A stretch of DNA of 47,462 bases from a virus, in the IMG/VR virus record IMGVR_UViG_3300050821_005468, positions 1-47,462 of that record, one strand, 5' to 3'. The notes under the pieces are model-generated. The model saw only the letters and a list, made by a program, of their open reading frames with translations. It ran no database searches and was not told the origin of the DNA. Positions 29,585 through 34,053 of the stretch are shown here, one piece after another (position 1 is the first letter of the stretch; each line of letters opens with the position of its first letter). A program made the position numbers and the translations under genes.

Positions 29585-29922
29585 GCGTCACCTCCCACCC
29601 GGCCGCGGTGTGCGGCTAGGATCGCATCGAGGCGTGCGGGGTCGAGCGCGACGTGCTTCACCCGGCCGTGCATGGCCACGCGAAGCTCGCTTGCCTGATG
29701 CTGCGCTGCGAGCTCGCCGCAGTACCGCGCATACTCGGCTTCCGTCGGTTCGCGCATGCCGCTGCCAACCTCCGCAAGCTCCGCGTAGACCTTCCGGGCT
29801 GCCTCGGCGATGTCCGTCACATCATCGTCCAGGGCGATCGGCAGCCCGCCGACGTTCCCGTCCGCCTCGCGGATCACGAGTAGGTAGAGGCCGTGGACGA
29901 TGTAGGGTGGTAACTTGGCCAT
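29581..29922 (-). CDS. Hypothetical protein
   Basis: A 113-residue protein overlaps the downstream gene as ATGA at 29584 and the metallophosphoesterase stop at 29922. The N-terminal strand region (PPYIVHGLYLLVIREADGN) is followed by long helices (DIAEAARKVYAELAEVGSGM, EAEYARYCGELAAQHQASEL). No family recognised. Coupling to nucleotide-metabolism-like neighbours gives little firm information about its role. Confidence 0.55.
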   Translation of the reverse strand: MAKLPPYIVHGLYLLVIREADGNVGGLPIALDDDVTDIAEAARKVYAELAEVGSGMREPTEAEYARYCGELAAQHQASELRVAMHGRVKHVALDPARLDAILAAHRGRVGGDA

Positions 29923-30734
29923 CAGATCACCTCTGTCTGAACCACGCCGCGGAATACGGTCGTGCGCTTGGCTTCGTCAAGGACGTGTAGTTGCTCGGGA
30001 GGCAGAAGCGTGCCGTCCCAAAAGGTCAGCACGGTCACCGCGCTGCGCCAGTTCACCGGGTTGGCTTCTGTGTAGTGGATGAACTGCTCGTCGTAGGGCA
30101 CGGCGATGCAGCCCGTGTCCACACCGTAGCGCACGCCGTTGTAATCGTTATATGGTGTGACCTTCGCGTTGTGCAAGTGGCCGGTGACGATCGAGCAGCC
30201 GGCGCCGACCGCATTGTTGTAGCTCGCGTGCGCGCCGCTCTTCCACCGGTGCTTGATCCGGCAAGCGCCCGTCCCACGTTTCTGGTTGATCTCCAGCATC
30301 CAGCAGGGGAACCACTCGGGGAAGTGGTCGTGGAGGTGGAAGCCTTGAAGCTCCGCGTACTCGCCGGCGACTTTCGCAAGGTTAGTCTCGAAGCGTAGAT
30401 CGTGGTTGCCCGCGGTCCAGTAGAGCAGCGCTTGCATGTCCTCGAACTCGGCTAGGCGCTCGTGCGCGACGGCAATCTCCCCGGCGACGCTCGGCCGATC
30501 TTCCCAGCCGATGCTCGGGTGCTTAGAGATTGTGGGGAAGTCCATCACGTCGCCATTGGCGACGATAGCGCGAGGCCGCAGTAGGTGGCCGAGCCGCACC
30601 CAAGCGGCATGCGCTGTAGAGCGCGGCTGCCCCGGCCGGTAGTGGCAATCGCTCCCGACGAGGATCACCCCGTCGCGGATGTTGATTTGCTGCACTGCCT
30701 TGTGCCAAATCGGTGGGCGAGAGGGATGGGTCAT
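29922..30734 (-). CDS. Calcineurin-like metallophosphoesterase
   Basis: The 270-residue protein (from ATG 30734; an upstream start at 30779 is possible) shows the metallophosphoesterase motifs: VGSDCHYRPG near residue 25 (D-x-H), NGDVMDFPT near 59, GNHDLRFE near 107, a histidine-bearing central region, and TGHLHNAK near 183. These residues hold a two-metal centre that cleaves phosphoesters. Phage members are often DNA or RNA phosphodiesterases or phosphatases. It is overlapped over 200 bases by the zinc-finger frame at 30523-30939, which is exceptional for this genome. Confidence 0.85.
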   Translation of the reverse strand: MTHPSRPPIWHKAVQQINIRDGVILVGSDCHYRPGQPRSTAHAAWVRLGHLLRPRAIVANGDVMDFPTISKHPSIGWEDRPSVAGEIAVAHERLAEFEDMQALLYWTAGNHDLRFETNLAKVAGEYAELQGFHLHDHFPEWFPCWMLEINQKRGTGACRIKHRWKSGAHASYNNAVGAGCSIVTGHLHNAKVTPYNDYNGVRYGVDTGCIAVPYDEQFIHYTEANPVNWRSAVTVLTFWDGTLLPPEQLHVLDEAKRTTVFRGVVQTEVI

Positions 30735-30939
30735 GAGCTTGAGTTTCCTCTGTTGGGGGCAGCGGGGTGAGGCCGGCACGCACGGCGGCTTTAGCTAGGT
30801 CGCGGATGCGCTGGTCGTGCGCAGCGACGGCAGCGTGGGCGCAGAGCTTGCAGTAAGACTGCAACCCATCCGCGCGCCGGGTTTGCCTGTAGAAGTCGGA
30901 GAGCGCCTTCGTCTCCCCGCAACGGCGGCAAGTCTTCAC
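30523..30939 (-). CDS. Zinc-finger protein, possibly frameshift-linked to the metallophosphoesterase
   Basis: The frame starts at ATG 30939, overlapping the polymerase stop as ATGA, so the start looks real. Residues 1-33 form a treble-clef-type zinc motif: CRRCGETKALSDFY, then QSYCKLC, as at the N-termini of many phage HNH/endonuclease VII-like proteins. After about residue 68 the frame runs through metallophosphoesterase DNA and has shadow composition (HPRRGDPRRERLPLPAG). A single-base shift at the C run opposite 30755-30759 would fuse the zinc motif to the phosphoesterase. Confidence 0.6.
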   Translation of the reverse strand: MKTCRRCGETKALSDFYRQTRRADGLQSYCKLCAHAAVAAHDQRIRDLAKAAVRAGLTPLPPTEETQAHDPSLSPTDLAQGSAANQHPRRGDPRRERLPLPAGAAALYSACRLGAARPPTAASRYRRQWRRDGLPHNL

Positions 30940-32549
30940 AGCTTCACCTTTACAAGTTGATCGTGTCGCCAGTTGGTGCCGACGCAGATCTCGGCGCGGA
31001 TGCGGACAAGGTGACCCTGCACCACGATGGGAGTTTCCATGATTTCCCGCACGCGACGCAGCGCATCAACGTCCCCTGGCCGTACGAGGCCGAGGATAGC
31101 GTCATGGATTTGGCCAAGCAGCCACACTCGATTTGGATCACCGGGGCGCGGAGTGCTTCGGATATTGAGGCGCGTGTCAAGTTCATTCCACACTCTCCAC
31201 ATTGCTAGGTTCAGCATCCAAGCGACGGTGCTCTGCTGGATTTGGGCGAGAGCTTCACGCTGAACGTCATCCTCCCAAAGACGGCCGAGGAAACGTCGAG
31301 TGTTCCCGAGCGGTCCGACAAGCACACCTGTATCTCGAACAGTTCGGCGGATCTCCATCTGGCGCGCAAGGTTTTCGGGGTAGCGTTGAAAGTACCGCGC
31401 GCGCATGTCCTTGCCGATGGCTCGGCTAACGTGCAGCTGCCGGGCAACGCCGTTGTCGGACATGCCGATGTTAGTACCGTGTCGGGTGACCTTGGCGATT
31501 TGCCTGTAGATGGCTGACTGGCTGCCGCCGCCCCAGGGGGTTGGCATGTCGGCAACCTGCCGGTCGGGTAGGCTTCCCCAGGGGAGATCGGGAAATAGCG
31601 TCTTCGCGAGGAAGGTATGGGCATCGCCATTGGCATGGTCCTCGATGTCCTGCGGGCATTGTGCGTCGTGCGCGATCAGCGTGCTTTCCGCAGCCTCCAA
31701 GTCGGCATAGAACATCACGAGGCCAGGGTCGGCGACGAAGATGCCGCGGTTCTTGTCGCTGATGTTCTGCATGTTGCTCGCGGTGCGGTAAGGCGATTTG
31801 CTGCTGCTCATCCGCCCCGTCTCCGCGGCGCACACATTGAACGTCGAGCGCCACCGGCCGTCGGGATCGAGCCGCGCATCGAGCGCGGACTTCTGCTTGC
31901 GCAGCCCACGCGCGCGGAGAATGTGATCGACGAGCGCCGCGTGCTCGGGGTACTTGTTCGCGAGCGCTTCCAGGGCCTCGTCGTCCGTGGTCACAACGCG
32001 TTGGCCGTTCTCGTTCGCCTTCCGCGAGTACCGACGCTTCAGGTCAAGGAGGTCGTAGAAGAGGTGGGCGCATTGGGAAGGGCTGTGAGGGTTGAAAGCT
32101 TGTCCAACCAAGCGTCCGCCTCCGCACGATTTGCAAACCTGGCTTTCAGGGGCACCACCACGAGGTATCCAGTTGTGCCGTCTTCGCGATACACCTTCGG
32201 GAAGCCCGCAATTATCACCGGTTGGCCGTGGACCTTTGACATCCCAAATCTCCAGAAGCTTGGGGTCGGAGTTGAGCGCGGCGACCGCCGCGGCCTCGTC
32301 CTTCCCACATTGCACGATCGCGGCCCGGCGCACCGGTTCATCGATGCGGGTGCCACGGAGGGTCATCGCGAGGCACGGCGCCTGGAAGGCGAAGGCCGCA
32401 CGGTAGAGCTTAAGGTCGTCGCCGGCGAGTTGCGGGTGGAGAACGTCAAAGCACATGCGCGTGCCAAGGCAGTCATTCGCGCCGTAGAGCCAATACCGCT
32501 GCTGCGCGTCGAGGCCCTGCTCGGCCGGGTCAGTTACCAGCAACATCAC
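30936..32549 (-). CDS. DNA polymerase A, polymerase domain only
   Basis: The 537-residue protein is the palm-fingers-thumb half of a family A polymerase. Motif A is FYADLEAAESTLIAHD (Asp and the +5 Glu kept). Motif B is RQIAKVTRHGTNIGMS, keeping R and K but with His where E. coli Pol I has Phe762 and Ile where it has Tyr766. Motif C is GQIHDAILG, with Ala after HD in place of the usual Glu. A cysteine cluster (VCKSCGGG) lies in the thumb region. The start at 32549 follows the stop region of the gene at 32530. The exonuclease half is encoded separately at 32923-34053. Confidence 0.88.
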   Translation of the reverse strand: MMLLVTDPAEQGLDAQQRYWLYGANDCLGTRMCFDVLHPQLAGDDLKLYRAAFAFQAPCLAMTLRGTRIDEPVRRAAIVQCGKDEAAAVAALNSDPKLLEIWDVKGPRPTGDNCGLPEGVSRRRHNWIPRGGAPESQVCKSCGGGRLVGQAFNPHSPSQCAHLFYDLLDLKRRYSRKANENGQRVVTTDDEALEALANKYPEHAALVDHILRARGLRKQKSALDARLDPDGRWRSTFNVCAAETGRMSSSKSPYRTASNMQNISDKNRGIFVADPGLVMFYADLEAAESTLIAHDAQCPQDIEDHANGDAHTFLAKTLFPDLPWGSLPDRQVADMPTPWGGGSQSAIYRQIAKVTRHGTNIGMSDNGVARQLHVSRAIGKDMRARYFQRYPENLARQMEIRRTVRDTGVLVGPLGNTRRFLGRLWEDDVQREALAQIQQSTVAWMLNLAMWRVWNELDTRLNIRSTPRPGDPNRVWLLGQIHDAILGLVRPGDVDALRRVREIMETPIVVQGHLVRIRAEICVGTNWRHDQLVKVKL

Positions 32550-32748
32550 GCACCGCCCGGACGAGCGCTTCGGTGATATGCCGAGCCGCGTAATCAGCCC
32601 ATGCGTGCTGCTGGCCACGCCCGATCATCGCAACCTCGTAGTCGGAGATTGCCATGCGCAAGCTATGTGTGCGCTTGCCTGGCGCGCGGATATAGATTTC
32701 CACCTCGGTCCACGGCAACACAACGCCGTCACTCTTCAAGTCCTGCAT
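32530..32748 (-). CDS. Small protein between the polymerase halves
   Basis: A 72-residue protein overlaps the gene upstream by 20 bases and the polymerase start by 20 bases. It has a strand-rich N-terminus (DGVVLPWTEVEIYIRAPGKR) and a helical C-terminus (QQHAWADYAARHITEALVRA). No family recognised. Position between the two polymerase genes suggests a replication accessory factor, but this is inference from context only. Confidence 0.5.
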   Translation of the reverse strand: MQDLKSDGVVLPWTEVEIYIRAPGKRTHSLRMAISDYEVAMIGRGQQHAWADYAARHITEALVRAVRDVAGN

Positions 32749-32923
32749 CTGGCAACCTTTCTATGTCTGCGGAGACAAGCTCCCCGCCAAGGAGGAAGCG
32801 GGACCAAAGGTGCAGCGGCATGCGCATCTCGTACCAGTCGCCGCCGAGTTCCACGTCGATGACCAGCTGCGTCGCCGGGTCATTCATCGCCTCGGGCAGC
32901 GGTGTGTGAAGGAAGAGTTGCAT
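32729..32923 (-). CDS. Small protein between the polymerase halves
   Basis: A 64-residue protein starts at ATG 32923, overlapping the exonuclease stop in TGATG form. It is acidic (TQLVIDVELGGDWYEMRMPL, ELVSADIERLPDAGLEE) and probably a small beta-alpha fold. An upstream start at 32980 would lie within the exonuclease frame and is less likely. No family recognised. Confidence 0.5.
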   Translation of the reverse strand: MQLFLHTPLPEAMNDPATQLVIDVELGGDWYEMRMPLHLWSRFLLGGELVSADIERLPDAGLEE

Positions 32924-34053
32924 CACGCGTCCCTCTTGTCCGCCGTGCCGCCCTGGCCGTGGTGCACGTCCGACTTCCACCTCGGCATCCCGGTGTACAT
33001 CGAGCCCATGAAGGCGAGGCTCTTCGGCAGTTCCGGCTGGAGGATGTGGTGGATCAGGCGAAGGTCCTCCGCGTAGTTGCGGATGCCGAACCCGACCTTA
33101 TCCAACAGCCAGAAGGCGTCGTAGGCTGCGAAGTTCTGCCCGAGCTTCGGCTGCGGCGTGTCCAAGACCTGCCTCAGCCAATCCCATGCCAACTGCTCGT
33201 CTCGCTCAGACTGCCAGTAGCTTCGGTCGGACTTGCGGTAATCGACAAAGGGTAGGACGAGGGCAGTCCGGGCGTCGGCGCCGATCTGAACGCAGACGAT
33301 TTGTCCGGCTGCTGTCTCGATGTCGAGGGTGATGAGCCGGCTCGGCGCAACGTGATCTCGGTAGAAGTCCGCCAGGTCCGCCAAGTCAGGCTCCAACCAA
33401 ACGGCAACCACACTCGGCGTGTATTCAGGGGAAGCAGCTTCATGTCGCACCTTCATCAGGTCCGCGATGAGCGGGACGAGCAGCTTGTACTGCTTGAGCA
33501 CGCGCTCGGGCGGGTAGGTTGGGAGGATCTTAAGGGCAGATAGTACCGTCTGCTGCTCGGCAGTAGCGACGCTCATAATCGGCGCGTTCGGCGCGACGAG
33601 CCGCGCGGCCCCGCGCCAATCGTCGATCGAGGTCCGCCCAGTGACGCTCCAAAGCGCGCCCTCCCCGAGAGGCACCAGCACGTTCGGCCGCGTCCGGCAG
33701 AGCCACGCCGCCGCCTGCTGGAGGTCCGACGCGGTAATAGGGGTCCCAACCCCCACCGGTGTCAGGCATGCGGCCACGTCCTGCCGATCTCGTTCAGCAC
33801 CTCCCGCATAAAGACACGCGAACGAGTGCGCGCGACGTTCCCAGAGCAGCCGGCGAGTTTCGCCGAGAGCCGCGTGCTCAAAGCCAGCAGGGATATCGTC
33901 AGGTAGAGCAAGGCCACTTGCGCGCAGAGCACGGGAAAAAAGATGCCCATCACTACCAACCAGCGGCAAGCCTTTGATATCGTCTTCGTCGGACGGGCGG
34001 TCGAGCAAAAAGAATACGCCATGCTTCTGCTCCGAAAGTTGTTGGCGGATCAT
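32923..34053 (-). CDS. DNA polymerase A N-terminal half: UDG-like domain plus 3'-5' exonuclease
   Basis: The 376-residue protein starts at ATG 34053 (ATGA overlap). Residues about 20-170 resemble the uracil-DNA glycosylase-like superfamily: GLPLVGSDGHLFSRALRASG, and later PNVLVPLGEGALWSVTGRTS. Residues about 220-370 are a DnaQ/PolA exonuclease: Exo I ITLDIETAAGQIVC, Exo II KLGQNFAAYDAFWLL, Exo III-like EDLRLIHHILQPELPKSLAF. UDG-like plus exonuclease domains usually precede the polymerase domain in one phage protein. Here the polymerase is separate, so this is a split enzyme. UDG catalytic residues cannot be confirmed by eye. Confidence 0.82.
   Translation of the reverse strand: MIRQQLSEQKHGVFFLLDRPSDEDDIKGLPLVGSDGHLFSRALRASGLALPDDIPAGFEHAALGETRRLLWERRAHSFACLYAGGAERDRQDVAACLTPVGVGTPITASDLQQAAAWLCRTRPNVLVPLGEGALWSVTGRTSIDDWRGAARLVAPNAPIMSVATAEQQTVLSALKILPTYPPERVLKQYKLLVPLIADLMKVRHEAASPEYTPSVVAVWLEPDLADLADFYRDHVAPSRLITLDIETAAGQIVCVQIGADARTALVLPFVDYRKSDRSYWQSERDEQLAWDWLRQVLDTPQPKLGQNFAAYDAFWLLDKVGFGIRNYAEDLRLIHHILQPELPKSLAFMGSMYTGMPRWKSDVHHGQGGTADKRDA

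Follow-up and report, generated by a model that had tools for sequence, protein, structure and literature searches.

The family-A DNA polymerase (PolA) encoded by IMG/VR virus record IMGVR_UViG_3300050821_005468, all 47,462 bases of which are referred to here as the window, is very probably a two-subunit enzyme with a composite proofreading site, derived from an ancestral gene that was divided and whose gap is now filled by passenger genes. The direct basis for this reading is a break whose position is conserved among relatives, catalytic residues that are intact on both sides of that break, inserted genes that vary between loci, and a predicted joint fold.

Gene layout and position of the break

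Four separate open reading frames (ORFs) occupy positions 34053-30936 on the minus strand. The first (32923..34053, 376 aa) encodes a UDG-like domain and the N-terminal half of the exonuclease, including Exo motifs I and II, and was assigned through the matches of its relatives to Pfam UDG and DNA_pol_A_exo1, an AF2 model and Foldseek. Small ORF 1 (32729..32923, 64 aa) and small ORF 2 (32530..32748, 72 aa) follow, and the fourth ORF (30936..32546, 536 aa) comprises the Exo III segment with the thumb, palm and fingers of the polymerase, matching Pfam DNA_pol_A (E=3e-33) and PHROG 17. Successive genes overlap by 1 nt (exonuclease half and small ORF 1), 20 nt (the two small ORFs) and 17 nt (small ORF 2 and polymerase), and the first stop and second start are fused in TGATG; these junctions confirm a preliminary, sequence-only reading, which had placed two small ORFs in other frames and with coupled starts between the halves. 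The small ORFs have a coding-like composition, with codon signatures of 0.21 and 0.22 bits/codon compared with 0.23 for the exonuclease and polymerase genes, while in the same region every other forward frame scores negative, as do two of the three frames in reverse, the last being approximately zero. Since the ORFs overlap and the small ones share the codon make-up of the phage, the four-ORF arrangement is real. An endonuclease-VII/HNH-like ORF (window 30523-30939) overlaps the end of the polymerase gene and is followed by a metallophosphatase gene (29922-30779); in L002, the nearest relative, a similar phosphatase ORF also comes after the polymerase.

The motifs of the enzyme, all on the minus strand, are distributed over the first and last genes. 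Exo motif I (DIETA, 33310..33324; D244, E246) has its D and E in 136/136 relatives with data, and Exo motif II (NFAAYDAF, 33112..33135; N307, D312) retains N and D in all 137 relatives; HHILQPELPKSL is found alongside them in the exonuclease gene, which ends in a C-terminal tail, VHHGQGGTADKRDA (32923..32967), that is disordered in the AF2 model (residues 362-376, pLDDT < 50). According to a tail census, the exonuclease half of relatives typically ends near ...TIKRDE. Exo motif III, a YxxxD motif (YGAND) within YGANDCLGT (32460..32486), lies at residues 21-25 of the polymerase gene (Y21, D25), with Y and D present in 136/136 relatives with data. Polymerases of the split loci have a short new N-terminal lead, typically M-x-I-I-x-T-x-x-L (e.g. 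MKIIxTxxL), situated approximately 20-25 residues ahead of Exo III. Polymerase motifs A (31686..31709; aspartate in 130/130 with data), B (RQIAKVTRHGTNI, 31467..31505) and C (QIHDAI, 31095..31112; D in 127/127 and H in 126/127 with data) are all on the polymerase gene, between 31709 and 31095. The residue of motif B equivalent to position 762, judged by the spacing R-x3-K-x3-x, is His in the window and in 128/129 split members with data, and both the window and L002 have Ile at the usual Tyr766 position.

The exonuclease domain is therefore interrupted, in the loop that links Exo II to Exo III. The sequence-only reading had PolA divided into a UDG-like/exonuclease gene and a polymerase gene; the split itself is real, but because Exo III is carried by the polymerase gene, it is the exonuclease active site itself that is divided between two genes. 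A profile of the exonuclease half built from 12 relatives corresponds to residues 14-127 of the Klenow chain and the clade profile of the polymerase half to residues 169-603; since these matches are consecutive and do not overlap, the two genes represent successive stretches of a single enzyme. Motifs A, B and C with their catalytic aspartates identify a family-A DNA polymerase (PF00476), and the DEDDy proofreading signature (Exo I DxE, Exo II D, Exo III YxxxD) is complete across two genes, exonuclease and polymerase being encoded on two polypeptides and not on one.

Distribution and history of the split

The isolated Caulobacter phage Kuura has the same gene order and the same break, with Kuura_029 (annotated as hypothetical) as the exonuclease half, two small genes (028 and 027) and Kuura_026 as the polymerase. 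L002, with 72% polymerase identity to the window, has the same break and a single small gene. Each profile scan of IMG/VR yielded more than 500 relatives, from which the best 80 per scan were kept. One odd locus aside, we examined 138 distinct loci in detail, among them the window, L002, Kuura and, from bacterial MAGs, the contigs L182 and L183; a further 42 were classed in the last scan, making 180 in total, nearly all of them IMG/VR contigs from a large and mostly uncultured phage group. The gene is split in 180/180 of these distinct loci, taken from the best 80 per scan of more than 500. Fused homologues, which the sequence-only reading had named as a sign of misassembly, were not found within reach of the split profiles (180 loci; best 80 of more than 500 per scan), and fused members of the split clade lying beyond the best 80 could have been missed. 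A scan with fused proteins recovered a sister clade (L184-L263), in which the gene is fused in 79 of the best 80 loci.

A polymerase tree with 60 rows places every split row except L182, 45 in number, to one side of a single branch. Support for that branch is 90 (not starred), and the branch of the window lineage is long. An earlier tree contained L005, L006, L011 and L013 and was rebuilt without them because their long branches met that of the window. A single origin of the split that includes L182 is disfavoured (p-AU 0.0475 for the constraint holding L182 with the split rows); on this weak rejection, L182 may represent a second origin. The L182 locus (JAGWIG010000017.1, 5929-8866) is split in the same loop, belongs to a different polymerase lineage beside Desulfofustis phage L010, and holds two other tiny ORFs in its gap. 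Within the fused clade, L215 (2186-4642) carries one in-frame TGA in the Exo II-Exo III loop, perhaps a third split event or else a sequencing error. Two other loci are broken elsewhere: PolA of Vibrio phage VS-ABTNL-3 (L009, 2456-5590) is interrupted inside the polymerase domain, with a 185-aa ORF in between, and in ctLwi270 (L012, 1727-4364) PolA is present as two ORFs with the break after Exo III.

Predicted fold, catalytic residues and contents of the gap

The exonuclease-half gene of the window was modelled by AF2 with a pLDDT of 85 and a pTM of 0.83, and in Foldseek this model matches family-4 UDG/UdgX and the exonucleases of PolA (Klenow). At one locus (L145) the two halves are in one frame with a single stop between them; a chain read through this stop, modelled from an alignment that combined 18 rows of fused sisters with unpaired rows from split loci, forms a complete and compact UDG and Klenow fold (pLDDT 94, pTM 0.91). 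Low confidence or disorder is confined to residues 1-4 and to the junction (339-353), and the new N-terminal polymerase lead is a beta strand. Compared by Foldseek with Klenow and Bst polymerase, the model has a target-normalised TM-score of 0.73-0.78 over approximately 650 columns. Because the chain was read through the stop with fused sisters in the alignment, the model indicates that the fold is compatible with the break and is not a demonstration that separate chains bind.

Nine of 12 clade members match PF03167 (best 1e-23); the window itself scores E=0.013, under the curated cut-off, and is placed in the UDG superfamily by its predicted fold (family-4 UDG/UdgX) together with the profile matches of its relatives, on which grounds the original UDG/exonuclease assignment holds. 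The catalytic motifs GExxG and HP are absent from the window, which has LDRPS and PP instead; relatives mostly keep them (E of GE in 122/137, H in 110/137). With both motifs lost, the UDG-like domain of the window (33439-34026) is probably not an active glycosylase. The UDG-like domain of L002 likewise has neither GExxG nor HP and is probably inactive too.

Each of the 135 complete loci preserves all five exonuclease residues (D, E and D on the first gene, Y and D on the second), two further loci being without data at some of these positions. As they persist despite divergence of these proteins to approximately 25-30% identity, we regard the residue census as strong evidence for selection of an exonuclease site spanning two chains. 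The exonuclease half might instead have become independent of the polymerase, for example as a DNA-binding UDG-like protein, leaving a polymerase that does not proofread; separate genes do permit separate fates, and the degenerate UDG-like domain of the window would suit such a history. Yet an abandoned site would not be expected to keep its Exo I, II and III residues jointly over both genes, nor would an exonuclease half that lacks Exo III be expected to act alone, and this alternative is very unlikely.

The distance from exonuclease stop to polymerase start has a median of 520 nt and ranges from -4 to 1998. There is no gene in the gap in 12 of the 138 loci, ten of which have halves that overlap or are at most 30 nt apart, nor in 13 of the 42 further loci (judged by distance to the polymerase profile), which gives approximately 25 gene-free gaps among 180; other loci hold up to six genes. 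The 227 inserted ORFs form 119 clusters, counts that are approximate since the ORFs were called mechanically. The largest cluster, present in 70 loci, is DUF1937/DUF7768/DUF4406-like by Pfam, which we take to be nucleoside-deoxyribosyltransferase-like; other families include HNH endonucleases (8/138 loci by motif), MazG and a deoxynucleotide monophosphate kinase. The window's own gap has no homing endonuclease gene. Even close relatives differ in their inserts: L065 has none and L086 one of 129 aa (84% polymerase identity), L058 has an HNH-like insert and L068 none (78%), and inserts also differ between L123 and L124 (97%) and between the window and L002 (72%).

It had been suggested from the sequence that the two small proteins are functional subunits, bridging the halves or conferring processivity. 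They do look coding and translationally coupled, and L002 carries a weakly similar homologue of small ORF 1 in the corresponding position (29% identity, E=1e-4 for a single comparison). However, small ORF 1 has no other link among the 227 inserts, small ORF 2 has no relative among them and no counterpart in L002, and about one locus in seven manages with no intervening gene. As gaps may be empty, as unrelated genes (deoxyribosyltransferase-like, HNH, MazG) take the place of the small ORFs, and as close relatives differ, the window's small ORFs are best read from these comparisons as replaceable passengers; a bridging or processivity role is highly improbable.

An intron or split intein could in principle interrupt the coding sequence, RNA or protein splicing then yielding one fused polymerase. 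Group I introns and inteins are known from phage polymerase genes (PMC6892783 and PMC10580990), and the polymerases of two related loci, one split and one fused (L069, 7993-10380, and L260), each carry an intein-like insertion, in frame, at an identical position in motif B (HG^C...N^TNY). Against this, Rfam yielded no intron match in the window region, nor any at the gathering threshold in 11 loci; no intein motifs were seen by eye at the junction; gaps contain whole unrelated genes or nothing; and the IKRDE-like C-termini of exonuclease halves and the leads of the polymerases recur as real termini. Splicing is on these grounds scarcely credible. Misassembly is excluded by the same break in an isolate genome and approximately 180 distinct loci, which likewise bear out the initial view that no single point frameshift is responsible.

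Proposed mechanism and comparison with known systems

The two-subunit PolA with its divided proofreading site probably arose as follows. In an ancestor of this phage group, a family-A polymerase with an N-terminal UDG-like domain (the SPO1/PaBG-type order) would have been divided into two genes by a cut in the Exo II-Exo III loop. The first gene would have retained the UDG-like domain and an exonuclease core containing Exo I and II, and the second the Exo III segment, thumb, palm and fingers, acquiring a new, short N-terminal lead. We infer physical association of the chains, exonuclease activity and this manner of origin: most likely, a single coupled message gives both proteins, which associate non-covalently during translation and restore a Klenow-like enzyme; its proofreading site would combine Exo I and II of the first protein with Exo III of the second. 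The gap tolerates insertions, and unrelated small genes such as HNH endonucleases and nucleotide-metabolism genes have repeatedly entered and left it. By analogy with Aeh1 nrdA, the HNH genes in some gaps suggest that the cut originated in the insertion of a homing endonuclease; they may equally be later invaders of an existing gap, some relatives having no insert at all. A more tentative picture, less likely than not, is of an entire widespread clade whose family-A replicase works only as two subunits; proofreading would then depend on their association, which might also tune it, and the gap would be a permanent point of entry for mobile and nucleotide-metabolism genes beside the replicase.

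Full-text literature searches, with subscription papers mostly outside their scope, returned no published description of a split between Exo II and Exo III or of its stability across a clade; a paper on cyanophage Mic1, considered as a precedent, concerns an intron-broken polymerase gamma. This appears to be a natural two-part proofreading polymerase that is testable in the isolate Kuura, and the loci range from fused through abutting halves to halves separated by one to six genes, a natural series that bears on how genes in pieces arise and persist. There is also a consequence for annotation, as the parts are easily overlooked in metagenome surveys that rely on full-length PolA.

One-chain enzymes with the same domain order and motifs are found in SPO1-like phages, in Pseudomonas phage PaBG (gp205, a UDG-exonuclease-polymerase chain; PMC7412058), in Microcystis phage Mel-JY34 and in the sister clade; these are encoded by one gene, whereas in the window's clade a cut separates Exo II from Exo III. 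The OM43 phages MEP401 and MEP402 likewise have PolA in two ORFs with a small ORF between, but in their case the break is inside the polymerase domain and the authors suggest an intron (PMC10580990); the passages describing it mention no UDG domain. The PolB gene of phage MIJ3 (PMC6892783) is also broken and carries a split intein, no sign of which was seen here. Further parallels are gp43A/43B of Aeromonas phages 25 and 44RR and NrdA of Aeh1, in which an essential replication gene is in pieces, some with a homing endonuclease in the gap, and the separate chains reassemble, as described for Aeh1 NrdA and phage 25 gp43A/43B (PMC2988022); the clade described here is known from sequence and predicted fold. 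Those cases involve a T4-type polymerase or a ribonucleotide reductase in a few phages, whereas here a family-A enzyme is divided clade-wide, with varied inserts or none. Split replicases have so far been scattered oddities; in this case the split is stable over a diverse clade and passes through a catalytic site whose residues are fixed on both chains.
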